This document shows positions 745 through 50,233 of a DNA stretch of 62,955 bases, piece by piece. The stretch comes from Parabacteroides sp. GTDB taxonomy: Bacteria; Bacteroidota; Bacteroidia; Bacteroidales; Tannerellaceae. The position numbers and the translations under genes were made by a program. The notes beneath the pieces were generated by a model. It was not told the origin of the DNA, ran no database searches, and saw only the letters and a program-made list of their open reading frames with translations. Within the stretch, counting starts at the first letter, position 1; every line of letters starts with the position of its first letter. The stretch lies in the NCBI GenBank assembly GCA_022775005.1, contig JALFJR010000096.1:1-62955 (forward strand). The letters are read 5' to 3'.

Positions 745-1346
745 AGTTGTGAGAGTTTCTTGCGCACCCATATTGGTGCGAGTTGGATGTCTTTCTGATA
801 GTCTTCTTCGGTCACATGTTCAAGATGTTTCCGGATGATGGCCAGCTGTTCTTCGGTCACATTGTGTTCGCCTATCTCGCGCATGGCGGTCACGATGAGC
901 TGCATCATGGTGGAACGAAAGGCGAAAACACGCATTTCTGACGTGTGCTTGAACAAGATGCCCTTGCCTTTCCCGATGGACACACGACGGCCCGAACCAT
1001 CCGTGACGAACACGACATTGGCCGGAATCTGGGTGGAAAGTCCCAGCTTGTTCAGTACGTACGCTCCGGTAGGGGCAATCCTCACCTTGTCGCGCTTGGC
1101 GATAGCTTCGGCAATTTCTTCTATGGAGGGCGGGATGATGCCGCTGCCCCATTTCCTATCCACTTTCGGATAGCAATAGATGCCTTGGGCCACACGCATA
1201 AGGTCGCCCGCACGGCATAGTCGGACCAAGGCCGACCGTACCGCATCGGAAGATGCCGGGTGAAAATCATCGGGAAAGAAAAGTCTTCCCCTTTTGGATT
1301 TCTCCACCCTTCTTTTTATCTCGCTATAAACGCTTTGCGCTGCCAT
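741..1346 (-). CDS. AbiEi-like antitoxin (DUF6088-type, winged-helix)
   Basis: 201 aa. The N-terminal third (residues about 20-60, SDAVRSALVRLCRAGDLMRV then GIYCYPKV) looks like the winged-helix domain of AbiEi-type antitoxins, and the rest matches the type IV antitoxin C-terminal region. Family members neutralise the AbiEii toxin and repress their own operon by binding inverted repeats near the promoter. Here an inverted repeat with arms CACAAAT/ATTTGTG lies just upstream and overlaps the likely -7 box, which fits autoregulation. It is the first gene of a two-gene minus-strand operon; the toxin start overlaps its stop. Start ATG at 1346 is the only sensible one in the frame. Confidence 0.85.
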   Translation of the reverse strand: MAAQSVYSEIKRRVEKSKRGRLFFPDDFHPASSDAVRSALVRLCRAGDLMRVAQGIYCYPKVDRKWGSGIIPPSIEEIAEAIAKRDKVRIAPTGAYVLNKLGLSTQIPANVVFVTDGSGRRVSIGKGKGILFKHTSEMRVFAFRSTMMQLIVTAMREIGEHNVTEEQLAIIRKHLEHVTEEDYQKDIQLAPIWVRKKLSQL

Positions 1347-1363
1347 TTCCTCTTTAATTTTGC

Positions 1364-1386
1364 CACAAATGTATAATAAATTTGTG
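1364..1386 (-). promoter_or_regulatory. AbiE operon promoter with overlapping operator
   Basis: On the minus strand TACATTTG (1373-1366) fits the Bacteroidota -7 consensus TAnnTTTG, 20-27 bp before the antitoxin ATG. A perfect 7-bp inverted repeat, CACAAAT (1364-1370) and ATTTGTG (1380-1386) with a 9-bp spacer, overlaps that box. This is the expected place for the antitoxin to bind and shut off its own promoter. No clear -33 TTTG was seen, so the promoter is plausible and not proven. Confidence 0.5.
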
Positions 1387-1449
1387 ACACTATCTCATAC
1401 AAGAAACGCTTATTCTGTTCAAAACCTAAATCATTCCATTGATAACGAC

Positions 1450-1492
1450 AAAAAAGCCGTCAGGCTTGTTGCATCCTGACGGCTCCTTTTTT
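1450..1492 (-). terminator. Terminator of the first DUF6383 gene
   Basis: Arms gccgtcagg (1456-1464) and cctgacggc (1475-1483) form a perfect 9-bp stem with a 10-nt loop; on the minus strand a run of T follows, and on the plus strand too, so it may act in both directions. It recurs nearly unchanged after the other two DUF6383 genes. Confidence 0.88.
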
Positions 1493-1642
1493 GTGACTGC
1501 CTTTCGCCCCTCACGAGGCTACTCCGCAATAAGAACTTTTTATTATTAACTTTCTAAATCCCTGCTTGTTCACCCTCACAGGTTACTTGGCTCAACGCCT
1601 CGCAGGGAGATTATTTATTATGAATAAATTTCTTTTGTTCTA
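1493..1642 (-). other. Conserved structured 3' UTR, copy 1
   Basis: Between the stop codon of the first DUF6383 gene and its terminator lies about 150 bp that is closely repeated after the other two family genes. On the minus strand it can fold into an outer stem (1602-1608 with 1559-1565, perfect 7 bp) enclosing two small hairpins, ggc-gttga-gcc and cct-GTGA-ggg, followed by a hairpin with a GTGA loop (1506-1519, arms gcctc/ggggc with one G-T pair). Pairing is kept across copies although bases change. No coding potential. It also contains no other gene, so this is the content of the 1347-1642 gap together with the terminator and the AbiE promoter. Confidence 0.6.
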
Positions 1643-3304
1643 TTATTTAACCACTACCTTCGTAACCTCACCTTCAACAGCAACTACGACTACACCTGCC
1701 GGAGCAGCGATCGTTACGTTGTCAGAAGCGGCTACCTGGCTAGCGATCGTCTGACCCAAGATGTTCGCTACGGTAATTACCTTACCAGCTGCACCCTCGA
1801 TGAACGCCCACTGTGCATATACGTTAGAGCCGTCGATAACGTTTGATAAACTATACTTATCGTTAGCCTTTGAAATCAAGTAAGCACCCTTATCCAAAGT
1901 AGCACGCAGAGAGTTTGCATACTGGCCAGCGATTTGCAAGCTATAAACCACAGCCTTTGTATCGATCACAGCGCCACTAGCTGAAGCAGCCTTTGCATAC
2001 GGTTGAATCATCGGAACAATCCAACCCGTTGCTGCTTCTGTAGCTTGACCTGCAACAGTCAATACAACACCGTTACCCAACTGACGCAAAGTAACCTGAC
2101 CTGCGCTGGGCTTATTATTCTCAGCATCAGTAGCAACCTTTGAATTTACTGCTGAAGCCGTAGCCTCTACAGCTTGATTGTTGAAGAAGAGACTTGTTTT
2201 TCCATTCACCACTGGAACATTCACCGCATTCAATGCGATAGAGTCATTTGTGAAAGTATACGTACCCTTGAAAGCAGCCTGCTTAGTAGAACGCTTCACC
2301 GCACCTTTATTAGTGGCTGACTCATTAAACGTACCCGCTTTCTTCAAACCATTTGCAGCATCCTTAGTGTACGCCTCATAAGGAATTGTATCCACTGCCA
2401 ACTTGAAGTACTGCTTTGCAGCCTTGTCCTGATACAACGTATCGACAATCAAATATTTCTTTTTCTCGATACTGATCACCTTCTTGTCACTATCTACGGC
2501 CATATCATTATTCGGACCGGTAACTGTCTCACCATTAGTCAAGGCGAAAGAGTTATCAGTCGAATTATAATCAACAGCTGTCCACTTAGTGTCCTTCAAG
2601 ATGTTTGTCTCATTAGAAGAAACATCCTTTCCACCGTTGAAATGCAACAGCCCATCATTCTTACCCATGATGTAGTTAAAGATTGCCGCATTCAAAGTGA
2701 TAGGAGTAGCAGACAAATCCTCAGCATCAAACTTCAAAGGAGAAGTAAAATCTCCAGTAGCAGTTTTCAAACCTTGTACAGCCACCAAAGTAAAACTCTC
2801 ATTCAGATAGTAAGTAGAGTCCTTTCCCTCTTCTGCATTTGGCACATACGCATAAAGCACTCCGTCACTATTGAGTGCCCATGTCTTATTACCGGCTTGG
2901 TCCAATTCCGTACCACCTGAAGTTTTGCCATTGGTTTTCAACTTGTAAGCGATGTATTCACCAGAATACTTATTAGATATACGATAGGTCTTCTGAACGC
3001 CAGCAGCAGTTGTATTCTCAACTACCTCCACATTCCAGGTAACTTTGTTCAAGTTGTTAAAGTCGTTTTCAACATTAGTTGATTCAACCATCTTTTTCAA
3101 TTTGTCAGAAGCTTTGCTTCCAGCTCCTGACAACTTCTGGTTCTTAATTGCCAAACCCTTACTATCAGAGCCAACGGTGACAGTAATACCAACATTCTCT
3201 CCATTTTTCACAGAAAGAAGCTTGTTATCAGCTGCCCACGCTGAAGAGCTGAACGCCGTAGCGAGCAGGAGGCTCGCCATCAGAGTAGAAAACTTTTTGT
3301 TCAT
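1643..3304 (-). CDS. DUF6383-domain secreted protein, copy 1
   Basis: 553 aa. A signal peptide (MNKKFSTLMASLLLATAF, cleavage near AWA-AD) is followed by a variable beta-rich core of about 470 residues that I do not recognise, rich in Thr, Asn, Lys and Val. The last 55 residues (from GAAGKVITVANILGQ to VTKVVVK) are almost identical to those of the other two family members; I recognise them as DUF6383. Their layout (NILGQ-type turn, APAGVVVVAVEG, terminal KVVVK) resembles a type IX secretion C-terminal sorting domain, which would place the protein on the cell surface; that is inference. It is the shortest of the three and lacks the roughly 200-residue penultimate module shared by the other two. 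It reads away from copy 2 across a likely invertible promoter, and in this assembly it is the gene that has the complete upstream block, so it is predicted to be the one expressed. Confidence 0.85.
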   Translation of the reverse strand: MNKKFSTLMASLLLATAFSSSAWAADNKLLSVKNGENVGITVTVGSDSKGLAIKNQKLSGAGSKASDKLKKMVESTNVENDFNNLNKVTWNVEVVENTTAAGVQKTYRISNKYSGEYIAYKLKTNGKTSGGTELDQAGNKTWALNSDGVLYAYVPNAEEGKDSTYYLNESFTLVAVQGLKTATGDFTSPLKFDAEDLSATPITLNAAIFNYIMGKNDGLLHFNGGKDVSSNETNILKDTKWTAVDYNSTDNSFALTNGETVTGPNNDMAVDSDKKVISIEKKKYLIVDTLYQDKAAKQYFKLAVDTIPYEAYTKDAANGLKKAGTFNESATNKGAVKRSTKQAAFKGTYTFTNDSIALNAVNVPVVNGKTSLFFNNQAVEATASAVNSKVATDAENNKPSAGQVTLRQLGNGVVLTVAGQATEAATGWIVPMIQPYAKAASASGAVIDTKAVVYSLQIAGQYANSLRATLDKGAYLISKANDKYSLSNVIDGSNVYAQWAFIEGAAGKVITVANILGQTIASQVAASDNVTIAAPAGVVVVAVEGEVTKVVVK

Positions 3305-3706
3305 AAATAAGTAATTTAATAGATTAATAATATGTTATAAATAACTCGTTCTTATTTGCCGGAAGGCTTCGCTGAAGGGAGGCGGGAAAAGGGGAAAAAT
3401 TGCGAAATTCCCACTGTCCGGACTGCTCAACGAAAACGTTCCTAACATTTGAGCACAAAGGCATGCGTATTTTCCTAATCACCAAGGGTTGCTCAAAGAA
3501 AAAGATGCGTCACCCCATTTTTCTGAACAAGGGCGTTGGTTTGCGCGACGAAAGCGCCGATTTCTTACATAACTTCGCTTTGCCCTGTTTACTCATCATT
3601 TGCAAATAGCTCACTATCTGTGTCTTTGCGGGCTTGACCCGCAACTCATCCTCTCTTTTTCTAACGCAACACGTTGCGTCCCTACCCCTTTTATAGACCG
3701 AAATGC
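3305..3706 (-). repeat. DUF6383 upstream block, copy 1 (inverted relative to 39045-39439)
   Basis: Read on the minus strand, these 400 bp match the block directly upstream of the third DUF6383 gene base for base over long stretches, from the CTATAAAAGGGGTAGGGACGC end at about 3706 to the start codon. Landmarks shared in the same order are the palindrome acgcaac-gt-gttgcgt, the phrase gggtcaagcccgcaaagaca, gcgcaaaccaacgcccttgt, the inverted-repeat core, and the pyrimidine-rich stretch ending gaagcctt. The two blocks therefore form a long inverted repeat about 36 kb apart. No protein is encoded; short open frames across it do not follow a coding pattern. Confidence 0.85.
3414..3440 (+). repeat. 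Left inverted repeat of the putative invertible segment
   Basis: This 27-bp core is the exact reverse complement of 3778-3804. The similarity continues outward on both sides with only scattered changes to the start codons of the two divergent DUF6383 genes, about 135 bp per side. The inner boundary is sharp: the sequences stop matching immediately inside the repeat. A direct-orientation copy of the right-hand core is also found at 39301-39327 before the third gene. Confidence 0.85.
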
Positions 3707-3777
3707 GGGGTCTGCTCAGCGCAATAAAATGCGCAAAAATACCCGGATTGTTCCACGGCGACTGCTCAACGAAAGTG
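3441..3777. promoter_or_regulatory. Putative invertible promoter segment between two DUF6383 genes
   Basis: 337 bp bounded by the inverted repeats. It carries the sequences that lie upstream of the third DUF6383 gene, oriented toward copy 1; copy 2 has homology only up to the repeat. A candidate promoter on the minus strand is TTG at 3485-3483, 19 bp, then TGCCTTTG at 3463-3456 (one base off TAnnTTTG); the same TTG-N19-TGCCTTCG is present before the third gene at 39256-39285. Inversion would put this block in front of copy 2 and remove it from copy 1. No recombinase gene is in the window. The geometry is seen; switching itself is inferred. Confidence 0.65.
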
Positions 3778-3797
3778 AACGTTTTCGTTGAGCAGTC
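3760..3797. repeat. Perfect 15-bp palindrome overlapping the right inverted repeat
   Basis: gactgctcaacgaaa at 3760-3774 and its exact reverse complement at 3783-3797, separated by 8 bp. The right arm is part of the right inverted repeat; the left arm is an extra inverted copy found only on this side. It may be a remnant of a second crossover site or a binding site for a recombinase or invertase accessory protein. Confidence 0.7.
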
Positions 3798-3804
3798 CGG
3801 ACAG
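3778..3804 (+). repeat. Right inverted repeat of the putative invertible segment
   Basis: 27 bp, exact reverse complement of 3414-3440. From here to the ATG at 3916 the sequence matches the leaders of the other two family genes (pyrimidine-rich stretch, gcctcccttcagcgaagcct, then an A/T-rich ttatttataacatatt run), giving a leader of about 135 nt. Confidence 0.85.
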
Positions 3805-3915
3805 AGGGAATCACCCCATTTTTCCCCCTTTTCCGGCCTCCCTTCAGCGAAGCCTTCCGGCAAGACAAGAACAGTTATTTATAACATATTATTAATCTAT
3901 TTAATTATTTATCGT

Positions 3916-6900
3916 ATGAACAAAAAGTTTTCTACTTTAATGGCCAGCTTGCTGCTGGCGGGTAGTGCTTTCTCAGTTGCCAATGCCACTGACTTTGCAA
4001 CTTTGGCAGGCAATGGGAAGTATTACAAGATTCAGAGATCAGCGTACTACACCAAAAGTTCTGCGGCTTGGACAACTGGAGAAGCTGGTTACTTTTTAAA
4101 TGATGAGGCAAATAAGAGCACAAATGTCACGTCGAAAATTGGTTTGTATACTATTATCGAAAATGAAGACGGAACCGTTTCTTTGAAAACTTTTGACGGT
4201 ACTTTATTGAAAGTCGCAGGTGTCAGCTCTTTTGTTGTTTCATATAAAACAGATTCCAGCAAACCCGGAAACCGTTTGTGGAAAAACGGCGAAAATTCGA
4301 AAGCCCTCCTTGGTACCGATGACAGTGGGAACTTGGAAATCGTTGATTGGAATGACGATCCTGATGAAGCCAACAAAGGTACATACGGCTATGCTGTTCA
4401 AGAAGTTGGCACAGACTTGGAGCAGGTAACCGGCTATGATGCGGATGACATTGACGATGGCTATACCTTCCGTTTTGTTATCCAAAAAGACGGTGAGGTT
4501 ACAGTGTCTGATGACATGTATAAGGCTGTAGTTAATGAGACAACAGGGACAGTTTTTTTCGTAGAAATAGAAAGTGGTGATGCTTTGGAAATTGGTGGTG
4601 CTTCTAACTTCACTCTTTTAGAGGTAGGTGATGATGTGGTGCTGCAAGTATCAGACAACTCTTTCGTGAAATACGATGGTACTAGCTTCTCTTTGGTTTC
4701 TTCTTTGGCAGAAGCTACTATCGTTGCATTCAAGGCAACTGGTTCTGCAAATGTTGACGTTGATCAGTTGAACTTCTTCGCACAGAATGGTTTCAGTGTG
4801 ACAGTGAAGGGTAAGGCTACCAATGGTAAATATACTGTAACGTTAAGTGATAATCCTTTCACAGGCCATTTGATCCCGATGACTTATTCTTCAAGTGATA
4901 ATGGCTCTTTCAGCAAGGCTGCCGATAGTGAAACTTCTTTCTATTTGAAGAATGAGGCTGGCAAGTATATCGTGGCTAAGCGTTACTCTGGTGAGGGTAC
5001 TTCTGCTTCTCAGGCTTTGTATAAGTTTGTGACTGTTGCTGAGAAGGATTTGATCTCTAACTTGCAACGCGCTGATAAGAAGCTTGAGACTCGCCTTTAC
5101 TACGGTTTGTTTAGTGCGGACGCTTCTGAGGCTGTATTGACAGAGGATGACGAGAAGTTGCAGTACATCGACCATCTGTATGTCAATGAGATTCCGGCTG
5201 ACAACGATGGGACGGGTGTCGCTAACGTTGGTCAATACAATTTCAATGGCACACCGACATTGGCCGCTTCTATCTCTACTGGTTTGAAGCCTATTCAGAT
5301 CAAGCTGGGCAGCAGTCAGTTGGTTAACGTGAAGAAGTTCTTGCAGAAGGGTAAGTTCTATACCATCGAGAAAGTGATTGCAAATGCGGTTTCCGGAAAC
5401 GGTAAGCTGGCTGTAAAAGACGGTAACGATACAGAGTATGTGAAGTCATACGGAAACGTATTGGAGGGTCAGTTTGCAGCAGCTTATGACGAGAATAATG
5501 ATAAAATTACTTTTACCAACCGAGAGAATCTTCAGGCTTCTGTAACGTTCGAGGCACATGCTTTGTATGTAGTGGATGGCGTGGCTGACACGTATCGTTA
5601 CGGTGCAGAGGCAACACAGCAGGAAGATAAGGATGGAAATGCTTTGGTAACAACTTATGAGATCAAAGCGGTTGCTTCTCACGCTGCAACGGATGGTTAT
5701 ATCACTTTGCCGCAGACAAATACGAACCGTGTTTATAACATCGGTTACTCTTCAAATGTATTTGGAAACAATGCGTACATGACTGAAAACCATGACGATG
5801 ACACAGCTGGTGCACATATCATTGGTTTGGATACCGATGTGGATGCAGCTTTGCAATTCTCTGCTTACGAGTGGTCAACAAAGGCTTACAAGAAGAGACA
5901 GGATGATCATACAGATAAGTATTTCCCGACAGACTCTATCTATGTAATCAGCCACATGGATTACTGGAATGCTGACGATGAGGAGTATCAGACAACAGCT
6001 GATACCTTGAAGGTGGTTTCTTACACTTTCGTTAACCAGTGGAATGAGCCGTTGGTTCGTGCAGCGGTTAAAGATGGCTATGCTTATCAGTCATTGGTAA
6101 CTTATACCGACGGTGGCAAGACTTATAAGTATGCTAACGCAACCTCAGAGAAAGCTTATGGCGATGCCGATCAGTTCGCATTGCGTAAAGATGGTAGCAA
6201 GCTGAACTTGCGTCTGGTTAACTTGGATCGTAATGAACAAAGCGAGGCTGACTTTGAGGCTGGTAAGAATTACCAAGTATTCCAGTTCGGTAACGATGCT
6301 AAGGTCTATGCTGGTGATGCCGCTAACGGTATCTTGGATGTGACTTCTTTGTATGACAGAACAGAGAATGACCTGTTCGTAGTTGAGGAGACCTCTAAGG
6401 CTATCTATCGCTCTTTGGAGGGCGCTAACGCCAACGGTTTGGATACGATCTCTATCTATCGCGACGAGAACAACAAGTCTCTGTTGTATGAGAAGACTGT
6501 TACGTTGACTGCTGACAACGACAAGGTGGTTAACTTCTTGGGCATGGAGAATATCGCTGACTTCACGAAGATGGCTCCGGCTATGTTAGCTGACATCGCT
6601 TACGTTCGCTATGAGACTTACATGCCGCAGTATCTGTTGGTAGTTGATCCGACAATCGTACCGGCCGGCAAATGGTGTGATGTTCACCAGACCGCTGATT
6701 GCGAGCACGCTGTTCCGACTAAGGGCTTGGTTTCTGGTCGCTTCTTGGTAAGCTTGGCTGATACCGCTGCTGTATGGGCAGACGCTAACAAGCACAAGGC
6801 TGGCAACCCGTATCTGAACTCTGAGAACTTGCCGAAGTTAGGTTTCGTACAGGCAACTCACTACAACGATACATTGGCGATCACTCGTGAGAAACCGACT

Positions 6901-7323
6901 GCAGCAGATTCCTTGTATTTGGGCGACAACAAATTCAACGTGGCCAAGTTTGCGTTCAAGTATGTTGACACTGAGTCTAAGTCCTTCTTGATCGAGACGA
7001 AGGGTGGCTTCTTGAAGTGGATGAATGGCTATGTAGTAGTAGTTCTGAACGAGAAGGATGCTGACATCTTCAACATGAACGAGGATGAGGATCGTAACCC
7101 GACGGCTAACGAGGCAATCGAGGCAGCTGGTGTTCAGGTAATCGCTGGTAAGGGTACTGTGACTGTACAGGGTGCTGCTGGTAAGGTGATTACTGTAGCT
7201 GACATCTTGGGTCGCACAATCGCTAACCAGGTAGCTGCTTCTGACAACGTAACGATCGCTGCTCCGGCAGGTGTAGTTGTAGTTGCTGTTGAGGGCGAGG
7301 CTACGAAGGTAGTGGTTAAGTAA
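3916..7323 (+). CDS. DUF6383-domain secreted protein, copy 2
   Basis: 1135 aa from the ATG that begins MNKKFSTLMASLLLAGSAF; the open frame extends 71 codons further upstream, but those lie in the repeated leader and are not protein-like. Signal peptide cleavage is likely after VANA. The core is long, acidic and beta-rich with no domain I can name. About residues 880-1075 (MLADIAYVRYETYMPQYL through LGDNKFNVAKFAFKY) align with the corresponding region of copy 3, and the last 60 residues are the shared DUF6383 module ending ATKVVVK. Codon use changes along the gene: the first 200-odd core codons use many GAA and AAA, whereas the rest is strongly GAG and AAG as in a highly expressed gene, suggesting a mosaic origin. 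In this orientation the promoter block points away from it, so it is predicted to be off. Confidence 0.85.
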   Translation: MNKKFSTLMASLLLAGSAFSVANATDFATLAGNGKYYKIQRSAYYTKSSAAWTTGEAGYFLNDEANKSTNVTSKIGLYTIIENEDGTVSLKTFDGTLLKVAGVSSFVVSYKTDSSKPGNRLWKNGENSKALLGTDDSGNLEIVDWNDDPDEANKGTYGYAVQEVGTDLEQVTGYDADDIDDGYTFRFVIQKDGEVTVSDDMYKAVVNETTGTVFFVEIESGDALEIGGASNFTLLEVGDDVVLQVSDNSFVKYDGTSFSLVSSLAEATIVAFKATGSANVDVDQLNFFAQNGFSVTVKGKATNGKYTVTLSDNPFTGHLIPMTYSSSDNGSFSKAADSETSFYLKNEAGKYIVAKRYSGEGTSASQALYKFVTVAEKDLISNLQRADKKLETRLYYGLFSADASEAVLTEDDEKLQYIDHLYVNEIPADNDGTGVANVGQYNFNGTPTLAASISTGLKPIQIKLGSSQLVNVKKFLQKGKFYTIEKVIANAVSGNGKLAVKDGNDTEYVKSYGNVLEGQFAAAYDENNDKITFTNRENLQASVTFEAHALYVVDGVADTYRYGAEATQQEDKDGNALVTTYEIKAVASHAATDGYITLPQTNTNRVYNIGYSSNVFGNNAYMTENHDDDTAGAHIIGLDTDVDAALQFSAYEWSTKAYKKRQDDHTDKYFPTDSIYVISHMDYWNADDEEYQTTADTLKVVSYTFVNQWNEPLVRAAVKDGYAYQSLVTYTDGGKTYKYANATSEKAYGDADQFALRKDGSKLNLRLVNLDRNEQSEADFEAGKNYQVFQFGNDAKVYAGDAANGILDVTSLYDRTENDLFVVEETSKAIYRSLEGANANGLDTISIYRDENNKSLLYEKTVTLTADNDKVVNFLGMENIADFTKMAPAMLADIAYVRYETYMPQYLLVVDPTIVPAGKWCDVHQTADCEHAVPTKGLVSGRFLVSLADTAAVWADANKHKAGNPYLNSENLPKLGFVQATHYNDTLAITREKPTAADSLYLGDNKFNVAKFAFKYVDTESKSFLIETKGGFLKWMNGYVVVVLNEKDADIFNMNEDEDRNPTANEAIEAAGVQVIAGKGTVTVQGAAGKVITVADILGRTIANQVAASDNVTIAAPAGVVVVAVEGEATKVVVK

Positions 7324-7474
7324 TTAACGAGAAAAATTATTCATAATAAGTAATCTTCCTGCGCAGTCCATTGGGCTAAGTAACCCGCGAGGGGTGAACG
7401 AGCAGGGAAATAGAAAGTTAATAATAAAAAGTTCTTATTGCGGAGTAGCCCCGTGAGGGGCGAAAGGCAGTCAC
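7324..7474 (+). other. Conserved structured 3' UTR, copy 2
   Basis: Non-coding. Predicted stems: outer cctgc/gcagg (7358-7362 with 7402-7406); inner gtcc-att-gggc (7366-7376, one T-G pair); ccc-GCGA-ggg (7384-7393), a GNRA loop; and gcccc-GTGA-ggggc (7448-7461). The same four elements occur after the other two DUF6383 genes with paired base changes. Confidence 0.6.
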
Positions 7475-7518
7475 AAAAAAGGAGCCGTCAGGATGCAACA
7501 AGCCTGACGGCTTTTTTT
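7475..7518 (+). terminator. Terminator of the second DUF6383 gene
   Basis: Stem gccgtcagg (7484-7492) with cctgacggc (7503-7511), 10-nt loop, followed by seven T. An A-run precedes it, so it could work in both directions. Confidence 0.9.
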
Positions 7519-7541
7519 ATATCCATTTATCCCTTCTCAAA

Positions 7542-7553
7542 CCGTAAGCTTAC
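7542..7553. repeat. REP-like palindrome unit ccgtaagcttac
   Basis: The unit ccgtaagcttac (palindromic around aagctt) is also found at 62437-62448, with relatives at 62459-62524 and a related hairpin at 10631-10659. It lies between the DUF6383 terminator and rpoN; the rest of the 7519-7624 gap holds only a weak possible rpoN promoter (TATATTCG at 7597-7604, one base off TAnnTTTG). Confidence 0.45.
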
Positions 7554-7624
7554 CTTTAATACACGAAGCTTATAACAATTATTCAGAACGGATTGTTATA
7601 TTCGCGAGTACAAATGGGCAGATT

Positions 7625-9094
7625 ATGTTAAAGCAACAGTTACAACAGAAGTTACAGCAAAAGCTCTCTCCGTTACAGATCCAGCTGATCCGAATGTTGG
7701 AGCTACCCACGATTGAGCTGGAGGAGCGGGTGAAGCATGAGCTGGAGGAAAATCCCGCTTTGGAGGAGGGAAAGGAGCCTTTGGATGATTTGGAACGCAA
7801 CGAAGAGGGAGGAAGCGCTGATGGAGAGGATGATTACCCGTCGGAAGGTGCAGAGAATGAGGATCTCTCTTTGGGCGATTACCTGTCGGAAGATGATATT
7901 CCTGAATATAAATTGCAGCAAATAAGCGAGCGGGCGGCACGCCAGGAGGAGTTCTCGTTGGTCGAGGGAGATTCCTTGCGTGACTATCTGTTGGAGCAGT
8001 TGAGGCTACGTAACTTGTCGGAGAAACAGGTGAAGATCGCTGAATACATCATCGGGAATATCGACGATGATGGCTATCTGCGTCGAGATTTGCAGGCTGT
8101 CGCCGATGACTTGATCTTCCAAGCCGGACTGGAGGTGAATGAGACGGAGCTTGAGGAGGTGCTGCGCGTTATTCAAGATTTTGAGCCAGCCGGTGTCGGT
8201 GCAAGGGACCTGAAAGAGTGCTTGTTGATTCAGCTGCGGCGACGGGAGAAAACAGCTGCCACGCAGTTGGCTATACGGATCCTGAACAGCTATTTCGATG
8301 ACTTTATCAATAAACGCTATGAACGCATCATGAAGCTCCTTGAGATTAAGGAGGAGGGGTTGAAACAGGCGATCCGGGAGATTACCTTGATGAATCCGAA
8401 GCCAGGGGGTAGTTGGGGCGATGCGATAGAGACAGCAATGAGCCAGGTCGTGCCTGATTTCTTGGTGGAGGCGAACAACGGTGAGTTGACTTTGAGCCTG
8501 AATGTGCGAGGTATTCCTGAGCTGCGCATCAACAAGGAGTATGAGGATATGTTTCAGGATTACAGCGGCAATAAGGCCAACCAAACCGTTGAACGGCGGG
8601 AGGCGATGCAGTTCGTGAAGCAGAAACTGGATGCGGCACAATGGTTTATCGATGTGATTAAGCAGCGCAACGAGACCTTGGAACGCACTATGGAGGCCAT
8701 TATCCATCTGCAACGGGAGTTCTTCTTGACCGGCGACGAGGCTACCTTGCGCCCCATGATCTTGAAAGATGTAGCAGAGCGGGCCGGTTATGACATCTCT
8801 ACCATCTCGCGGGTTAGCAACAGCAAATACGTGCAGACTAATTTCGGAATCTATCCCTTGAAATTCTTCTTCTCAGAGTCGATGCAGACCGATACGGGCG
8901 AGGAGATCTCTAACCGAGAGGTGAAGCAGATTATGAAGAACCATGTGGATGCGGAGGATAAACGCAACCCGTTGACCGATTTAGAATTGTCGGATATTTT
9001 AAAGAAGGCGGGTTATGTGATTGCTCGCCGAACCGTAGCGAAATATCGGGAGCAGTTGGGTATCCCTGTGGCCCGTTTGCGAAAGGAGATTTGA
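7625..9094 (+). CDS. rpoN: RNA polymerase sigma-54 factor
   Basis: 489 aa, the usual length. The Gln- and Leu-rich region I (LKQQLQQKLQQKLSPLQIQL) that contacts activators is at residues 2-45, followed by an acidic linker rich in Glu/Asp (about 40-95), the core-binding domain, the helix-turn-helix around ISTISRVSNSKYVQTNFG, and the RpoN box ARRTVAKYRE at 467-476 that reads the -24 element. Sigma-54 directs transcription that depends on AAA+ enhancer-binding proteins. It starts about 100 bp after the preceding terminator and is followed after one base by a membrane protein gene, so both are probably cotranscribed with gcvH and purE. Confidence 0.97.
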   Translation: MLKQQLQQKLQQKLSPLQIQLIRMLELPTIELEERVKHELEENPALEEGKEPLDDLERNEEGGSADGEDDYPSEGAENEDLSLGDYLSEDDIPEYKLQQISERAARQEEFSLVEGDSLRDYLLEQLRLRNLSEKQVKIAEYIIGNIDDDGYLRRDLQAVADDLIFQAGLEVNETELEEVLRVIQDFEPAGVGARDLKECLLIQLRRREKTAATQLAIRILNSYFDDFINKRYERIMKLLEIKEEGLKQAIREITLMNPKPGGSWGDAIETAMSQVVPDFLVEANNGELTLSLNVRGIPELRINKEYEDMFQDYSGNKANQTVERREAMQFVKQKLDAAQWFIDVIKQRNETLERTMEAIIHLQREFFLTGDEATLRPMILKDVAERAGYDISTISRVSNSKYVQTNFGIYPLKFFFSESMQTDTGEEISNREVKQIMKNHVDAEDKRNPLTDLELSDILKKAGYVIARRTVAKYREQLGIPVARLRKEI

Positions 9095-39011: not shown

Positions 39012-39044
39012 TTTTCTTGCCGGCCTCGACCCTGCGGAACACCC

Positions 39045-39439
39045 TATAAAAGGGGTAGGGACGCAACGTGTTGCGTTAGAAAAAGAGAGGATGAGCTTGC
39101 GGGTCAAGCCCGCAAAGACACAGATAGTGAGGGACTTGCGAATGACGTGTAAATAGAGAGAAGCGAAGTTATGTAAGAAAGTGGCGCTTTCGTCGCGCAA
39201 ACCAACGCCCTTGTTCAGAAAAATGGGGTGACGCATCTTTTTCTTTGAGCAACCCTTGGTGATTAGGAAAATACGCATGCCTTCGTGCTCAAATGTTAGG
39301 AACGTTTTCGTTGAGCAGTCCGGACAGTGGGAATCACCCCATTTTTCCCCTTTTTCCGCCTCCCTTCAGCGAAGCCTTCCCAACAGAAAAGAACGAGTTA
39401 TTTATAATATATTTACTAATCAATTAAATTATTTATCGT
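39045..39439 (+). promoter_or_regulatory. DUF6383 upstream block, copy 3
   Basis: 395 bp matching the reverse complement of 3305-3706. It includes the 27-bp repeat core (39301-39327), a candidate promoter (TTG at 39256-39258, 19 bp, TGCCTTCG at 39278-39285), and a leader of about 150 nt to the ATG. No inverted partner of the core was found between 38702 and 39045, so this copy has no local invertible unit. The block contains no gene. Confidence 0.75.
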
Positions 39440-42400
39440 ATGAACAAAAAGTTTTCTACTCTGGTGGCCAGTCTCCTGCTGACTACAGCGTTCGGAACCG
39501 TTCAGGCAGCTAATACTGTTGAGAAGAGTAACACTCCTTGTGGTGCAGGTCTGATCACGGGTGCTGCTTTCGCCAATCAAGAGCAGTTGAACGCTAAACA
39601 ATTCTATTTTGTACAGGATAAGGATGGTAAGTTCTTGTCTGTCGTTGAGGGTAATGGCTTCCAAGCTAAGTTGGTGAATGAGCCGGCCTCTTTGGACGCA
39701 TTGAATCATTCGTTGTGGAAGATCGAGCCGCAGGTAACTGAGGATGGTGGTGTAACTCGTTTCGTGTTGACCAACAAGGCTACAGGTCTGTATTTCGCTT
39801 ACGATCCTACGGTTAAGGACGCTGACAAGAATTTGGGTGGTGCTTATCCGAACTGGAAGTGGTTCGAGAATAAGTTCGCTGCTTTCGGTACAGCAACAGA
39901 GTTGACTGTTGTTTTCGAGAAGGGCGACAAGACCATGTACTTGGATGAGGAGAATGGTGTTGTTGTTGCGAAGAAGGTAGCAACAAAAGACTATAAAGCA
40001 AATTCTGGTTTGAAATTGAAGATCGCTAAGGCAGGTACGTATGTATTGAGCGCAGCCGATCTGAACAAAGAGACTTCCAAGGCTGGTGTGGAGTACATGC
40101 AGTTGAACTTCGGTGAGGATAATGAGAACAACATCTTCGCTGAGAAGTATCAGGCTCAGCAGCTTGTGGCAAGCAATGCAAAGAATCCGTTCGAAATTGA
40201 GCGCGCAAAGAAAGCAGGTTACACGAATAATTTGGAGAATTATCTTGTTTTGAACAAGATCGATGAGAAGGGTAATTTGACTTATAACTATCTGCGTATC
40301 GATACCTCTTATTATAAGAGCAATGGTGAGACTTATAAGACTTACAATCAGATTGCATCTTCTGCAGCATCTTTCAAGAAAAATGATGGTGAGGTTGCTA
40401 CTGCCAATGGTTACAATGTAATTGATGTATTGGGCGAGAATTTGCCGGATGATGCTTTCCGCTTCCAGTTCGTCAAGAACTTGGCTAACGACTCAGTATG
40501 GGTTCGCTCTTTGGTTGAGGCTGTTGAGTTGAAAGAGGCAACATCAGAGGGCCTTTACAACGCTGCTGCTTCCATGAACACTAAGTGGACTTATGTTCAT
40601 GCAAATGAGTCTGTTGAAGAGGGTACACAAGCTGACGATGTTCACAATGGCGCGGGTACAAATTTGATCCTCTCTCACTGTACATTGGAGGGTGAGACTG
40701 AGAAGGTCATCACGTTCTACACTTGCGACGAGGGTAAACCGGCCGCTAACTATGTAAACTTGATGGCTATTGACGGTGTATCTCAGAACTACACAACTAT
40801 CCCTGCTGGTGTTTATGTAGTCAGCGTGAAGGGAACGGACAAGAAGGCTTACGAGAACTTCTGCAGCGAGTTCGGTCTCTCTGCTGAGGCTTTGCAAGAG
40901 TACACACACATGCCGGCATTCCAGTGGGTTGTTGATCCGGTGATCAAGAACGGCGAGATGGCAGCTGTTAGCCCCGTGAAGGTGATCAACCGTGAGACCA
41001 CAGATAACTTTATGGATCTTGCTAACTTGCAGTTCGTGAAGGCTGAGGGCTTGGCTGCTAATGAGATCAATCTCGGTGGTACAATTTATGTATTCAACGC
41101 AATTGAGCTGACTGAGGAGGGCTACTATCGTGGCATCGCTGAGGACGAGGCTGAGTTGGAGACTTATCGCTTGACTTACTTGAGCGGTTTGGCTGCTGCT
41201 AATGCTAACCTGGAGGTTGGTTTGACAGCTGATGAGACTTTGAAGGTTGGTGCTGAGGGCGTTGACTTCACTTTGGTTCCGACGAATACTAAGCCGGAGA
41301 CTTATGGCGTAGCTGATGAGTTGGAGAAGGTGGCTTACAAGTTGATGGCAAACGGCAAGTATGTCGTAAATGACGCTGATGAGAAGGGTACCGTGAAGTA
41401 CACGTTGACGGATGACGAGCAAGTAGCTTCTGTATTCTATTTGAAGGAGCAGAACTGCGTGGATGGTACACACTACTATGCATTGATCGAGGTTGTTGAT
41501 ACTCCTAATGCTGAAAGAGCTCTTTGTGTTACGGGCAAGGTTGGTGTTGATGATGTAACGGCTGAGTTGCGTCCGGAGTGCGCTTGCTGCGGAGATGTTG
41601 CTACTCGTACTTCTGCCTTCGCTTTGACGAAGTCCACTACTCCGTTGTATCGTCGCTTGGGCGTAACGAACGCTGAGGATGGCTTGGCTGACAAGGACGT
41701 TCAGAACGCGAAGATCTTCCGTGTGAACGCTACGGCTAAGGAGTATCTCTATGAGGATGCGAACTCTGTATATTCTGCAGGCAAGGGCATCAACTTCTTA
41801 GGTGTTGAGGGTAAGGGCGACGATAAGTTGGCAGCCATCACGGTTGATACCGCTTATGTACGCAACGAGACTACTATGCCGCAGTATCTGTTCGTAATGG
41901 GCTATGAGTACCACGAGGCAGGCATGATGTGTCCGGAGAACGACGAGCACAACGATGCAGACTATATCGCTAAGTTCGGTGACTGCGGTCACAAGGTTCC
42001 GACTCAGGCTTACGCAACTGGTCGCTACTTGGTTAACTTCGCAGACTCTGTAGAGTTGGCAGAGAATGCTGCTGATTACATCTGGAACACCCGTTACACT
42101 CGTCTGGGCTTCGTAGAGGCTAAGCACATCGGTGATACGTTGGTAATCTATCGCAACGGTCAGCCGAGCACAGCTGCCGCTGACTCTATCTTCCTGGGCG
42201 ACAACAAGCACAACAAGAACGGTATCAAGAACGCAGTCTTCGCATTGCGCTTGACTGGCACAGGTGAGGCTGACTTCATGATCGAGACCGAGGGTGACAA
42301 GAAGATCCCGACTGAGAATACTGGTGCTTGGGTAGCTATTAAGAATGGTGTACCTGTAGTTGCTAAATACGCTTCTTACAGGGATGCTATCGCAGACGCA

Positions 42401-42658
42401 GAGATCTTCAACGTCGAGGCTACTACTGAGGAGGCAACGGCTAACGAGGCAATCGAGGCAGCTGGTGTTCAGATAATCGGTGGCCAGGGCGTTGTAACGG
42501 TTCAGGGTGCAGCAGGTAAGGTAATTACCGTATCGAACATCTTGGGTCAGACAATCGCTAACCAGGTAGCTGCTTCCGACAACGTAACGATCGCTGCTCC
42601 GGCAGGTGTAGTCGTAGTTGCTGTTGAGGGCGAGGCTACGAAGGTAGTGGTTAAGTAA
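39440..42658 (+). CDS. DUF6383-domain secreted protein, copy 3
   Basis: 1072 aa. Signal peptide MNKKFSTLVASLLLTTAFG with likely cleavage after VQA. The core is beta-rich with no known domain in its first 750 residues. From about residue 800 (AITVDTAYVRNETTMPQYLF through LGDNKHNKNG) it aligns with copy 2, including the MPQYL, GRYLVNFAD and DSIFLGDNK landmarks, and residues about 1005-1072 are the shared DUF6383 module ending ATKVVVK. Codon use is strongly biased (GAG, AAG, GCT, GGT), typical of very abundant proteins, which fits a surface-layer role; this is inference. It sits between the exporter operon and frr with full upstream and downstream cassette flanks. Confidence 0.86.
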   Translation: MNKKFSTLVASLLLTTAFGTVQAANTVEKSNTPCGAGLITGAAFANQEQLNAKQFYFVQDKDGKFLSVVEGNGFQAKLVNEPASLDALNHSLWKIEPQVTEDGGVTRFVLTNKATGLYFAYDPTVKDADKNLGGAYPNWKWFENKFAAFGTATELTVVFEKGDKTMYLDEENGVVVAKKVATKDYKANSGLKLKIAKAGTYVLSAADLNKETSKAGVEYMQLNFGEDNENNIFAEKYQAQQLVASNAKNPFEIERAKKAGYTNNLENYLVLNKIDEKGNLTYNYLRIDTSYYKSNGETYKTYNQIASSAASFKKNDGEVATANGYNVIDVLGENLPDDAFRFQFVKNLANDSVWVRSLVEAVELKEATSEGLYNAAASMNTKWTYVHANESVEEGTQADDVHNGAGTNLILSHCTLEGETEKVITFYTCDEGKPAANYVNLMAIDGVSQNYTTIPAGVYVVSVKGTDKKAYENFCSEFGLSAEALQEYTHMPAFQWVVDPVIKNGEMAAVSPVKVINRETTDNFMDLANLQFVKAEGLAANEINLGGTIYVFNAIELTEEGYYRGIAEDEAELETYRLTYLSGLAAANANLEVGLTADETLKVGAEGVDFTLVPTNTKPETYGVADELEKVAYKLMANGKYVVNDADEKGTVKYTLTDDEQVASVFYLKEQNCVDGTHYYALIEVVDTPNAERALCVTGKVGVDDVTAELRPECACCGDVATRTSAFALTKSTTPLYRRLGVTNAEDGLADKDVQNAKIFRVNATAKEYLYEDANSVYSAGKGINFLGVEGKGDDKLAAITVDTAYVRNETTMPQYLFVMGYEYHEAGMMCPENDEHNDADYIAKFGDCGHKVPTQAYATGRYLVNFADSVELAENAADYIWNTRYTRLGFVEAKHIGDTLVIYRNGQPSTAAADSIFLGDNKHNKNGIKNAVFALRLTGTGEADFMIETEGDKKIPTENTGAWVAIKNGVPVVAKYASYRDAIADAEIFNVEATTEEATANEAIEAAGVQIIGGQGVVTVQGAAGKVITVSNILGQTIANQVAASDNVTIAAPAGVVVVAVEGEATKVVVK

Positions 42659-42857: not shown

Positions 42858-42908
42858 TGTCGTACAACCTCAATCGCAGGGTGTAGTTGCGTTTTCGCAA
42901 GTGAATAA

Positions 42909-42939
42909 TTTGTCTTATAGGAAATCTTTATTACTTTTG
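42909..42939 (+). promoter_or_regulatory. frr promoter
   Basis: TTTG (42909-42912), 19 bp, TACTTTTG (42932-42939): a full match to the Bacteroidota -33/-7 consensus, 36 bp before the frr ATG. Confidence 0.78.
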
Positions 42940-42974
42940 AGCACAATTTTACAGCAACAAAACAATTTAATCTT

Positions 42975-43538
42975 ATGATCGATACGAAGCAAATCATCAA
43001 GGCTGGCGAAGAGAAGATGACGTTCGCCATTGACTATTTAGACGAGCAACTGTCTCACATTCGGGCAGGCAAAGCAAATCCGAAGATTTTGGATTGCGTC
43101 AAGGTAATGTACTACGGTGCGCCGGTACCTCTTTCCAACGTGGCTACCGTGACGGTGCCCGATGCCCGCACGATCATGATCACGCCGTGGGAGAAGAAGA
43201 TCATCCGCGACATTGAGAAGGCTATCTTAGATTCTCCTGTAGGTATTACGCCGGAGAACAACGGCGAGGTGATCCGTTTGGGTATTCCTCCGTTGACTGA
43301 GGAGCGCCGTAAACAGTTGGCTAAGCAGTGCAAGGGCGAGGCTGAGAGCGCTAAGGTCAGCATCCGCAACGCACGTCGCGATGCGATCGAGGCATTGAAG
43401 AAGAGTGTCAAGAGCGACGGTGTGCCCGAGGATGTGGAGAAAGACGCTGAGGCGAACATGCAGAAGATCCACGACAAGTATATCAAGAAGGTGGATGAGC
43501 TGTATGCGGCCAAAGAGAAAGAAATCATGACGGTCTAA
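42975..43538 (+). CDS. frr: Ribosome recycling factor
   Basis: 187 aa, usual length. It has the family landmarks [13 protein letters not shown] near residue 29, [14 protein letters not shown]-like [20 protein letters not shown] near 47, and [16 protein letters not shown] near 105. It splits ribosomes after termination together with EF-G. The rsgA gene follows after 9 bp, coupling two ribosome maintenance genes. Confidence 0.97.
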
Positions 43539-43547
43539 GCCTACGGC

Positions 43548-44480
43548 ATGAAGGGACTTGTCATCAAGAACACGGGCAGTTGGTACACGGTCCGCACGGA
43601 CGATGGACGTGACATCGAAAGTAAGATCAAGGGCAATTTCCGACTGAAAGATATCAAAAGCACCAACCCGATTGCCGTGGGCGATCGGGTGGTGATTGAT
43701 ATAAATACAGAGGGCACCGCCTTTATCTCGGCTATTGAGGAGCGTAAGAACTACATCATCCGCCGTGCCTCTAACCTCTCTAAACAAGCGCATATCATCG
43801 CCGCCAACCTCGACCAGGCGATGTTGATCGTGACCGTGAACTATCCGATCACTACTCCTATCTTTATCGATCGTTTCTTGGCGACCGCCGAGGCCTATCG
43901 TGTTCCCGTTAAATTGGTATTCAACAAGATTGACCGCTATCTGCCCGAGGATGTAAAGCTGATGGAGGCTTTGATCGAACTTTACAGTGCGATTGGCTAT
44001 CCTTGCGCCAAGCTCTGTGCCAAGAAAGGTGAAGGGTTGGAGGCGTTACGGGCAGACCTGAAGGATCGCATTACCCTGCTTTCTGGCCACTCCGGTGTGG
44101 GTAAATCGACTTTGATCAACCAGCTGGTGCCGGGCGTGAACCTACGTACCGGCGACATCTCGGAATATCACAACAAAGGAATGCACACGACGACTTTCTC
44201 GGAGATGATTCCGTTGCCCGACGGGGGCTACCTGATCGACACCCCGGGCATCAAAGGGTTTGGCACGATCGAGATGGAGGATACGGAGATCTCTCACTAT
44301 TTCCCGGAGATTTTCAAGCAATCCGTTGACTGCCGCTTCAACAACTGCACCCATCGGCATGAGCCGGGTTGCGCTGTCTTGGCTGCGGTGAAAGAGGGAT
44401 TGATCAGCGAATCTCGTTATAAGAGCTACCTCAATATCTTGGAAGATCGCACGGAAAGTAAATATCGGGAGGATTATTAA
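43548..44480 (+). CDS. rsgA: Ribosome small subunit GTPase RsgA
   Basis: 310 aa. An N-terminal OB fold ([19 protein letters not shown]) precedes a circularly permuted GTPase domain: G4 FNKIDRY, then G1 [10 protein letters not shown] and G3 DTPGIKGFG. The C-terminal zinc motif is [14 protein letters not shown]. It checks late 30S maturation. Its 3' end overlaps the convergent dgt gene by four bases. Confidence 0.96.
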
Positions 44481-45802
44481 ACCGCCGGCAGGCTCATGCC
44501 GGTAATCTTGCGGTAGAGGTCGAGCGCATAGACATCGGTCATCCCTGAGATGTAATCGAGCACACATTGGATCTTGCCGTAGGTGGTGGGAGCCTGTGTG
44601 TCATATTGCTCCGGGATGCGTTGCAGCAAGAGTTTGCTATATGCATGAGATTGATTCATCACCGCCTCCATCAAGACATCAATGAGATGGCTGAAGATGT
44701 GATAACCAGCCAACTCCACATCCAGGACCTCTTTTGCCCGATAGATCTTACGGCAAGCGGTCTCCGCACAGGTCTGGTAGGCTGCCTTGGCATGAGGCTG
44801 GATGCAGTCGATCAGCGGCTGGTTGTAGCTACCATTCAAGATCGCCTCCTCATTTTCTAAGAATACCCGCGAGCATTCATCCACCAACAGGCCAATGATG
44901 CAGGAGCGCAGGTAGGCAATGCGCTCATTGGTATCATCGACAATGGTCATGGTGCGCTGGATATGTGCCAGCTTCTCCCCTTCAAAGAAACCTAATAACA
45001 GGTTAATGGCTTCATCGGTGGTTAGGATATGGAGCTTGCAGGCATCCTCGATGTCCATCACCTGATAGCAGATATCGTCAGCCGCCTCCACCAAATAGAC
45101 CAAAGGATAGCGCAGGTATTTCTCCGGAGCCTCCGGTTGCCGCCCGATGCCCAGCTCCTCTGCGATCTGCACATAGCTCTCCTCCTCCGACTGGAAGAAA
45201 CCGAACTTACCCTTCTTGCCTGCGTAGATAGAGGCGTAGGGGTATTTCACGATGGAAGCCAGCGTGCTATAGGTCAAGGCAAAGCCCCCTTTACGCCGAC
45301 CCACGAATTGGTGGGAGAGGAGTCGCATGGCGTTGGCATTACCTTCAAAATGAACGAAATCTTCCCAACGTCCACTTTCATTGCGCACTAACTGCTCCAA
45401 CTTCCGTCCGTTGCCCTCTGAGAAATAGGCTGAGATGGCCCGCTCTCCCGAATGGCCAAACGGCGGATTGCCCATGTCGTGCGCCAAGCAAGCGGCAGAG
45501 ACGATGGAGCCAATCTCCGGGAAGTTGATGCTGCCCTCCGGGTATTTCCGCATCAATCCCTTCGATACGTTATTGCCTAACGAACGCCCCACGCAAGATA
45601 CCTCCAAGCTATGGGTCAATCGGTTATGCACAAAGATGCTACCTGGAAGCGGAAAGACTTGCGTCTTGTTCTGCAACCGACGGAAAGGTGACGAAAAGAT
45701 CAAACGGTCATAATCCCGTTGAAAGTCGGTGCGCTCATGCTTGCGCTCGTGATACGCCTCCAAGCCGAAGCGTTTACCGGATAAAAGTTGGTTCCAATTC
45801 AT
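44477..45802 (-). CDS. dgt: Deoxyguanosinetriphosphate triphosphohydrolase-like protein
   Basis: 441 aa from ATG 45802 ([15 protein letters not shown]); 29 further codons upstream are not protein-like. HD-domain residues are in place: [13 protein letters not shown] for the first His and [18 protein letters not shown] for the HD pair. The family cuts dNTPs to nucleoside and triphosphate, controlling the dNTP pool or acting in phage defence. It is downstream of the TrpB2 gene but separated by a strong hairpin, so it is probably transcribed separately. Confidence 0.93.
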
Positions 45803-45892
45803 GGCTCTGACTCCTTTTTTACGGATTCTCCAACGGCAAAGATACGATTCTTTGGGCATACTTCGCATAGGATGGCGGAATCCATACATAGT

Positions 45893-45947
45893 AAATGCCG
45901 TTTCATGCTGGGTTAACCGTACAGTAATACCCGATGAAACGGCATTT
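45893..45947 (-). terminator. Hairpin terminator after the TrpB2 gene
   Basis: Perfect 14-bp arms aaatgccgtttcat (45893-45906) and atgaaacggcattt (45934-45947), with extra inner pairing; it starts 26 bp after the TrpB2 stop on the minus strand. Confidence 0.75.
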
Positions 45948-45973
45948 AATATTGCATTAAAAGCCAGCTAAGC

Positions 45974-47335
45974 TTAAATCAATTTCTCCAAGTCTTTCAG
46001 ATTATTGGCAACTTCCTCGTCAGTTACCTCATAGTTGGACAAGTCACCCGCCAAGTATTGGTCGTAAGCCGCCATATCAATCAAGCCATGACCCGAGAGG
46101 TTGAAGAGGATGGTCTTCTGCTTACCCTCCAACTTTGCCTTCTCCGCCTCACGGATCGCCGTAGCAATAGCATGGGAAGACTCCGGTGCAGGGATAATGC
46201 CCTCTGCCTGTGCGAAGAGGGTAGCTGCCTTGAAGGTCTCCAACTGCGGAATATCCACAGCCTCCATCAACTTGTCCTCCATCAACTGACTGACGATAGA
46301 ACCAGCACCGTGGTAACGCAAACCACCGGCATGGATATTGGCCGGAGCGAAGTTGTGACCCAAAGTGTACATCGGGATCAACGGCGTATAACCTGCCTCA
46401 TCACCAAAGTCATACTGCAACTGACCACGAGTCAACTTCGGACAAGAGGCCGGCTCAGCCGCAATGATACGTACCTCCTTGCCTTCAGTCAGCTTGTGAC
46501 GCATGAAGGGGAATGAGATACCGGAGAAGTTAGAACCACCACCGAAGCAAGCGATCACCACATCGGGATACTCACCCGCCATCTCCATCTGCTTCTCAGC
46601 CTCCAAACCGATCACCGTCTGGTGCAACATCACGTGGTTCAACACACTACCCAAGGTATATTTGCAATTCGGTGTCTGCATCGCCAACTCTACAGCCTCA
46701 GAGATAGCCGTACCCAAGCTACCTTGGTAGTTGGGATGATCGGTCAAGATCTTACGACCCGCCTTCGTGCTCATACTCGGCGAAGCGATCACCTGCGCAC
46801 CAAAAGTCTGCATGATCGAACGACGATAGGGCTTCTGATGGTAGCTGACCTTCACCATATAAACAGCCAACTCCAAACCGAATGCCTTCGCTGCGTAAGA
46901 CAAAGCGGCACCCCACTGACCGGCACCGGTCTCCGTCGTGATGTTGGTGATACCCTCCTGCTTGCAATAGTAGGCCTGCGCCAAAGCAGAGTTCAATTTG
47001 TGTGAGCCAACCGGGCTGACGCTCTCGTTCTTGAAATAGATATGTGCAGGAGTGTCCAACGCTTTCTCCAAACCGTAAGCACGTACCAACGGTGTGGGAC
47101 GCCACACCTTATACAGTTCACGTACCTCTTCCGGGATCTCGATCCAAGCATCTGTGGTGTTCATCTCCTGATGCGAAACACCTTTGGAGAAGAGTGGATA
47201 GAGATCCTCCTCTTTCAGCGGCTGTTTTGTGGCGGGGTTCAACATAGGCCGGGGTTTGTTCTTCATATCGGCCACGATGTTATACCAAGCGGTTGGTATA
47301 TCCTTCTCTGACAATAAAAATTTCTTTGTGTCCAT
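45974..47335 (-). CDS. TrpB2-type PLP enzyme (tryptophan synthase beta-like)
   Basis: 453 aa, the long TrpB2 form. The PLP-binding lysine is Lys113 in SPVGSHKLNSALAQ; ETGAGQWGAALSYA and the phosphate-binding CFGGGSNFSGI are present. TrpB2 makes tryptophan from indole and serine without needing TrpA; no trpA or other trp genes flank it, so indole salvage is a reasonable role. It is a single-gene unit, divergent from the outer-membrane barrel gene and ended by a strong hairpin. Confidence 0.93.
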   Translation of the reverse strand: MDTKKFLLSEKDIPTAWYNIVADMKNKPRPMLNPATKQPLKEEDLYPLFSKGVSHQEMNTTDAWIEIPEEVRELYKVWRPTPLVRAYGLEKALDTPAHIYFKNESVSPVGSHKLNSALAQAYYCKQEGITNITTETGAGQWGAALSYAAKAFGLELAVYMVKVSYHQKPYRRSIMQTFGAQVIASPSMSTKAGRKILTDHPNYQGSLGTAISEAVELAMQTPNCKYTLGSVLNHVMLHQTVIGLEAEKQMEMAGEYPDVVIACFGGGSNFSGISFPFMRHKLTEGKEVRIIAAEPASCPKLTRGQLQYDFGDEAGYTPLIPMYTLGHNFAPANIHAGGLRYHGAGSIVSQLMEDKLMEAVDIPQLETFKAATLFAQAEGIIPAPESSHAIATAIREAEKAKLEGKQKTILFNLSGHGLIDMAAYDQYLAGDLSNYEVTDEEVANNLKDLEKLI

Positions 47336-47499
47336 GCGTATGTTATCTTTATACTACTGCTAAATTTTTCGCCGTCCTTGTTTGACAACTTGGCGGCAAA
47401 GGAACAAATAATATTTCTTTTCTTCAAGCTGATTCAACAAAAATAGATACATTCGCGAAGAAAACTCATATTTTAGATAACTATATAGATCGTCCAAAC

Positions 47500-49648: not shown

Positions 49649-49663
49649 GCTTCACCTGCTCGG

Positions 49664-50074: not shown

Positions 50075-50170
50075 ACTTCTATACCATTTAAAAGATTCAA
50101 CCTGTTTGTTTTTGCCTATATGACTACGGGCCAAGCAAACAGGTTACACAAAAGTCGCACTTTTTTGCGA

Positions 50171-50206: not shown

Positions 50207-50233
50207 GCTGAATGATCAATAATCCAAAGCCAA

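Follow-up and report, generated by a model that had tools for sequence, protein, structure and literature searches.

The stretch of DNA analysed here (the window) is the whole of contig C96, 62,955 bp long, in a Parabacteroides draft genome of 109 contigs (G000). Near its start, two DUF6383 genes, copies 1 and 2, lie head to head around an exact inverted repeat, CTGTCCGGACTGCTCAACGAAAACGTTC. The repeat was found to be 28 bp long, with its arms 335 bp apart; an earlier sequence-only reading had it exact, which held, and put it at 27 bp and 337 bp, which did not. That the repeats lie between two divergent genes of this family, as that reading also proposed, was borne out by PF19910 matches in both. 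The features of the locus, and those of a third gene further along (copy 3), are as follows.

1643-3304, minus strand: copy 1, DUF6383 gene, an open reading frame of 553 aa (PF19910, 69.5 bits; cut-off 23.7); the predicted promoter faces it now
3305-3413, minus strand: leader of copy 1, aligned to the leader of copy 2
3414-3441, plus strand: inverted repeat arm 1, GTTC core at 3438-3441, same sequence as arm 2 and the copy 3 site
3442-3776: putative invertible segment, 335 bp, promoter end on the copy 1 side and promoter-less end on the copy 2 side
3456-3485, minus strand: predicted promoter facing copy 1, TTG at 3485-3483, 19 nt, then TGCCTTTG at 3463-3456
3760-3797: at the copy 2 end, putative recombination site, a palindrome of two 15-bp inverted arms flanking 8 bp
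3777-3804, minus strand: inverted repeat arm 2, core at 3777-3780
3805-3915, plus strand: leader of copy 2, aligned to the leader of copy 1
3916-7323, plus strand: copy 2, DUF6383 gene, 1135 aa (PF19910, 90.2 bits), which faces the promoter-less end now
39044-39299, plus strand: remnant of a cousin segment, with its predicted promoter facing copy 3; neither its far end nor a far arm was found
39300-39327, minus strand: third 28-bp site, identical to the arms, upstream of copy 3
39440-42658, plus strand: copy 3, DUF6383 gene, an open reading frame of 1072 aa, with DUF6383 at 42434-42652 (95.4 bits)

The start of copy 2 was set by homology, at the conserved MNKKFSTL. When the whole window was searched with a 26-base repeat query allowing up to three mismatches, the three matches were both arms and 39300-39325 on the minus strand; the same query had no match in 100 shuffles. 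A scan of 3280-3940 for sigma-70-type promoters and terminators found nothing, and an Rfam search of 1300-7700 gave no match.

The weaker inverted homology of about 110 bp seen earlier on the outer sides of the repeats is real, and it corresponds to paralogous leaders (3307-3402 and 3817-3912) and coding starts (3261-3305 and 3915-3959), returning at the 3' ends of the genes (1642-1797 with 7169-7324, and 1450-1575 with 7392-7517). The two leaders are identical at 89 of 111 alignment columns, and the first residues of both proteins are alike and, by eye, signal-peptide-like. By BLASTP, the part common to copies 1 and 2 is confined to their last 52 residues. DUF6383 is entered in one table as a putative T9SS targeting domain (PMC9722745). 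The bodies of DUF6383 genes seem to be replaced quickly. We also compared the window with a relative, G007, which we take to be Parabacteroides distasonis strain An897; at corresponding positions it carries the DUF6383 genes L072 and L067, whose leaders and 3' ends are common with those of copies 1 and 2 and whose C-terminal parts alone match them by BLASTP.

The DNA between the arms had been described as the same as that upstream of copy 3. This applies to about 284 of the 391 bp, which match 39044-39327 at 95%, but not to about 80 bp at the copy 2 end, for which no counterpart was found; the loss of homology between copy 2 and copy 3 at the repeat was confirmed. Since its far arm was not found, the copy 3 cassette (39044-39440) looks locked, and it looks silenced by mutation as well.

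A promoter core, TTG-N19-TACCTTTG, points outward from one end of the cassettes. A pattern search of G000 and G007, which more diverged copies would escape, returned 20 distinct promoter positions, 18 of them with TACCTTTG, although four of these 18 may be two cassettes each present on two contig ends. Together with a third Parabacteroides genome, G004, which we take to be probably the P. distasonis type strain, ATCC 8503, the core is kept at 28 of 30 positions. The only two exceptions to TACCTTTG are both in the window, TGCCTTTG in the segment and TGCCTTCG at copy 3. In both, the A of the -7 box is G, and the copy 3 box carries one change beyond that, making two relative to TACCTTTG. The position and spacing of the window promoter are conserved, and over a 56-bp stretch the segment differs from C42 and C16 at two bases only, one of which is the -7 A. 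The consensus for Bacteroidales promoters is given, in passages of PMC7366714 and PMC12632263, as a -7 box TAnnTTTG (also TANNTTTGY) with TTTG near -33; the window promoter has TGCCTTTG in place of TAnnTTTG. As this box is without the conserved A, the output of the window promoter is doubtful, and it may be reduced in either direction. The segment holds a second promoter-like match, TTG-N18-TGTCTTTG with one mismatch (3600-3628, toward copy 2), of the same nominal quality and overlapping sequence that recurs across the genus. A part of the segment that contains a palindrome, TTGCGGG...CCCGCAA, at 3617-3658, recurs many times across other Parabacteroides genomes.

DUF6383 profile matches number 15 in G000 and 16 in G007, and related segments with related arms lie upstream of several of these genes in both. 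The source organism is a Parabacteroides that is not close to G004: its RpoN protein is 85% identical to that of G007 and 75% to that of G004. The predicted promoters were found in the following orientations.

G000, window segment: toward copy 1
G000, C42, C13, C34, C94, C105 and C9: away from the gene
G000, C16 near 15.9 kb: away from the gene, most of the segment missing
G000, C16 near 70 kb: toward a two-ORF DUF6383 unit, gene-side arm not found
G007, L069 and L072: toward the gene
G007, L067, L068, L070, L073 and L086: away from the gene
G007, L071: the contig carries the promoter-less end only
G007, L084: contig end, no gene seen

Among the type I cassettes of G007, the gene-side arm reads CGTTC in five of five and the far arm GGTTC in all four seen. 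Cassette L069 has its inner sequence swapped relative to the other type I cassettes, with its outer arms unchanged, and a second, diverged segment type also occurs in both orientations (L072 versus L073). Both orientations were thus found in a related genome, in sister cassettes that lie at different loci rather than being one locus in two states. Because the outer arms stay fixed while the inner sequence is swapped, the exchange point would fall inside GTTC. This core is not invariant in G000, where the far arm has CTTC at C33 and GTTT at C105; TT is kept in both. An 18-base site pattern also matched 12 stretches of viral contigs, none with the promoter-end GAGCACAAAGG, and these were taken as unrelated.

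In G004 (4,811,379 bp), 11 upstream regions of DUF6383 genes were fetched, ten of them with a readable start. Each of these ten has one promoter, always with TACCTTTG, pointing away from the gene in nine and toward it in one, where the inverted repeat was not found. Around the promoter, six of the ten regions have inverted repeats of another sequence, 171-176 bp apart; these repeats (L130-L140) are AAACGACTAGTYTAAACGATCG or close forms and end in AAACGATCG or a close form. The same promoter core with other repeats indicates that the core is conserved while the arms differ. Across G000, G007 and G004, most single-gene cassettes have the promoter pointing away from the gene, which fits what is expected of switches that are mostly OFF.

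A gene for an Mpi-family serine invertase lies in G000 at C103:9190-9819 (NF009949, 316 bits; cut-off 272), unlinked to the 3414-3804 locus on C96. Its product is 92% identical to a homologue in G007 and 54% to one in G004. For Bacteroides fragilis, Mpi is described in parts of PMC8375218, PMC4747536 and PMC5903667 as a serine invertase that controls scattered invertible promoters at capsule loci, with a site core of ARACGTTCGTN (PMC8375218). The site core of the window, AAACGTTC, agrees with this at nine of ten positions at one end and eight of ten at the other, and sister arms vary (GGTTC, CTTC, GTTT). With an Mpi-family gene in the genome and a site core like that of the B. fragilis enzyme, the likeliest mechanism is a promoter inversion of the known Mpi type, as with the P. 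distasonis surface glycoproteins. The repeat end of G004, AAACGATCG or a close form, also resembles ARACGTTCGTN. Given the other repeats of G004 and a homologue there that is only 54% identical, site and enzyme may have diverged together between G004 and G000; from one species to another, the comparison suggests, the recombination site and the invertase change and the core of the promoter does not.

It is quite unlikely that a tyrosine recombinase, XerC/XerD or another, inverts the segment in place of Mpi. Serine recombinases make a 2-bp crossover; tyrosine recombinases use an overlap of 6-8 bp. The palindrome at the copy 2 end does resemble 15-bp arms around an 8-bp spacer, and a tyrosine-type site was our first reading of it. 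The recombining ends, however, share little beyond GTTC, which suits a 2-bp serine crossover better and is why a serine enzyme is now preferred; both end sites of the window segment are moreover symmetric about the TT of GTTC, as would suit such an enzyme. G000 has five tyrosine recombinases, two of which, XerD (92%) and an XerC-like protein that scores below the XerC cut-off (89%), have close counterparts in G007, as Mpi does. None of the remaining three has a close relative among the four matches in G007; they are at most 30% identical to the nearest, apart from a 42% match to XerD over 55 residues, and this speaks against them.

Taken together, these data make it probable that 3414-3804 is a working invertible promoter cassette able to face copy 1 or copy 2. 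It would most likely be of the Mpi kind, set between head-to-head DUF6383 genes, with a single outward promoter that points at copy 1 in the present orientation. An exchange at GTTC in the two identical arms would reverse the 335-bp segment and leave the same promoter at copy 2, in the same leader geometry. That a flip would serve copy 2 with the same promoter follows from both genes offering an identical 28-bp arm and homologous leaders. We infer three steps from the sequence: the flipping of the window copy, Mpi as the likeliest enzyme, and the setting of expression by orientation.

The promoter shuttle proposed earlier is upheld by the anatomy of the cassette, a conserved promoter facing copy 1 and identical arms, and is weakened by the -7 box, which is altered here and at copy 3; as an either/or device it is supported by geometry and doubtful in output. 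A serious contender, to which we give somewhat less than an even chance, is that the segment can invert but a defective -7 box leaves its promoter weak or inactive; both genes would then be poorly expressed, and no true either/or would exist. This overlaps with the working-cassette interpretation and concerns output only. The -7 change may have arisen in a locked cassette like that of copy 3, where mutation would be the remaining way to silence the gene, and then passed to the segment by exchange. The near-universal TACCTTTG (18 of 20 in G000 and G007, ten of ten in G004, the window segment and copy 3 being the exceptions) argues for a loss of output, as does the -7 A being one of the two differences from C42 and C16 in 56 bp. 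On the other side, the remainder of the promoter is intact, and the -7 mutation tested in print (TAnnAAAC, in the part of PMC4747536 that describes it) is a change other than A to G.

It is unlikely that the locus is a frozen relic, in which a DUF6383 gene and its upstream region were duplicated in inverted orientation, so that two leaders came to face each other, and whose repeats recombine no longer. Paralogy extends over the leaders, the signal peptides and the 3' ends, as a duplication would have it, and other cassettes look locked (copy 3 without its far arm, C16 at 15.9 kb without most of its segment). Yet identity between the arms is complete across 28 bp and drops to only about 80% in the leaders just outside them. 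The copy 2 end also keeps its palindromic site whole, in agreement with the sites of C34 and C42, and the genome holds an Mpi-family gene. Least likely of all is a false head-to-head pair made by wrongly joining two cassettes in assembly. The 109-contig state of the draft, with C34, C33 and C13 ending inside cassettes, makes such an error conceivable, as do the stretches that copy 1 has exactly in common with a C16 cassette (101 bp in the leader, 107 bp in the terminator) and the segment with copy 3 (101 and 50 bp). In the stretches compared, however, no exact run extends from the copy 1 leader through arm 1 into the segment; the longest across that junction are 40 and 50 bp. Were the join wrong within the 101-bp run shared with copy 3, the true partner of copy 2 would be copy 3 rather than copy 1, again a DUF6383 gene in head-to-head position. 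Contig breaks fall in or next to cassettes at C34, C33, C13 and G030:C53, and counts of cassettes and flips from draft genomes are therefore probably too low.

The working-cassette reading does not carry with it the idea that the cell would show one protein or the other. In G000 a promoter stands beside a DUF6383 gene at nine other places (C42, C13, C34, C94, C105, C9, two on C16, and copy 3), and a flip here would not restrict the cell surface to two proteins. Between copies 1 and 2 themselves, the geometry of a common promoter would by itself, without a regulator, allow one surface protein or the other but not both.

In a tabulation of 159 matches to DUF6383, drawn from nine genomes (G000 and G007 plus seven more), copies 1 and 2 are the only head-to-head pair with starts at most 1.5 kb apart. 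The count includes weak matches, takes gene starts estimated from open-frame lengths and would overlook any pair that a contig end separates. The second closest divergent genes, in G012, are separated by about 8.9 kb, and in G004 no DUF6383 genes were found head to head within 10 kb. In the open-licence literature we found no report of a shared, divergent invertible promoter for two genes of the type seen in the window.

What is new is this two-gene arrangement; Mpi-type inversion and phase-variable surface glycoproteins in P. distasonis are known. Campylobacter fetus switches its S-layer (sap) with a single promoter carried on invertible DNA that separates divergent S-layer genes, giving either/or expression. 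The window locus resembles that system in having one putative invertible promoter between divergent surface-protein genes; the sap element is much larger and its bacterium unrelated. Fletcher et al., in PNAS in 2007, reportedly described phase-variable surface glycoproteins of P. distasonis. That such glycoproteins vary by promoter inversion and form a family of large surface proteins, as the sequence-only reading had stated in part, is in print in passages of PMC8400631 and PMC2943079, the latter tabulating DgpA and DgpC for the species. They share with the present proposal the genus, a family of large surface proteins and promoter inversion. In G004 the DUF6383 genes have the same promoter core, mostly directed away from the gene and in many cases flanked by inverted repeats; they differ from the window locus in repeat sequence and spacing, and are candidate Dgp genes. 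The B. fragilis Mpi system has an invertase of the family present in G000, acting on scattered promoters, and its site core, ARACGTTCGTN, is approached by the window segment to the extent given above; its promoters serve polysaccharide operons, whereas here one promoter with 28-bp arms would serve two surface-protein genes. On gut Bacteroidales, surface structures that vary by phase influence what is encountered by phages and by the host.

The decay of cassettes appears recognisable, the examples above suggesting arm loss, loss of most of the segment and loss of the -7 box; such marks help to infer switch states from genome sequence. By eye, the C16 cassette near 15.8-15.9 kb (L024 near 2425-2540) was apparently deleted between two TCACCCCATTTTTC copies, leaving a promoter that points away from the gene and no gene-side arm.

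The window is collinear with G007 in two blocks: 7.55-38.9 kb (7554-38911) with G007:C1:89.7-121.1 kb, and 42.9-62.4 kb (42892-62368) with G007:C76:103.9-130.3 kb, where G007 has extra DNA. The G007 cassette beside rpoN has a single gene, and its other neighbours are kinase-like and CtpA-like genes (named by eye), which in G000 lie beside a C16 cassette. From these blocks and neighbours, the window cassettes have other combinations of flanks in G000 than in G007, and DUF6383 cassettes, where long collinear blocks end, look like rearrangement points. In the stretches compared from G002, G004, G005, G018, G027 and G030, the rpoN side is common and the other side of the cassette was unmatched.

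Somewhat unlikely, on our assessment, is a three-gene switch on two scales, in which the small flip would move the promoter between copies 1 and 2, and inversion of the 3.44-39.3 kb block would decide whether copy 1 or copy 3 is paired with copy 2. The 28-bp site of copy 3, opposite to arm 1 and about 36 kb off, would be open to the same invertase. The differing cassette flanks of G007 fit such a switch but do not show it. If true, promoter cassettes would also be chromosome-rearrangement sites that make new gene pairings.

A simple inversion of the 36-kb block between G000 and G007 was suggested by an AbiEi gene, which in G007 has as its neighbour the DUF6383 gene on the opposite side of the collinear block; this reading was weakened by a second AbiE copy at the start of C42, in step with the G007 neighbourhood. 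The two AbiE-type toxin-antitoxin copies of G000 are 92-94% identical and both lie at contig ends, one at C42 (L141) 1-1572 and the other at 1-1346 of the window, just downstream of copy 1.
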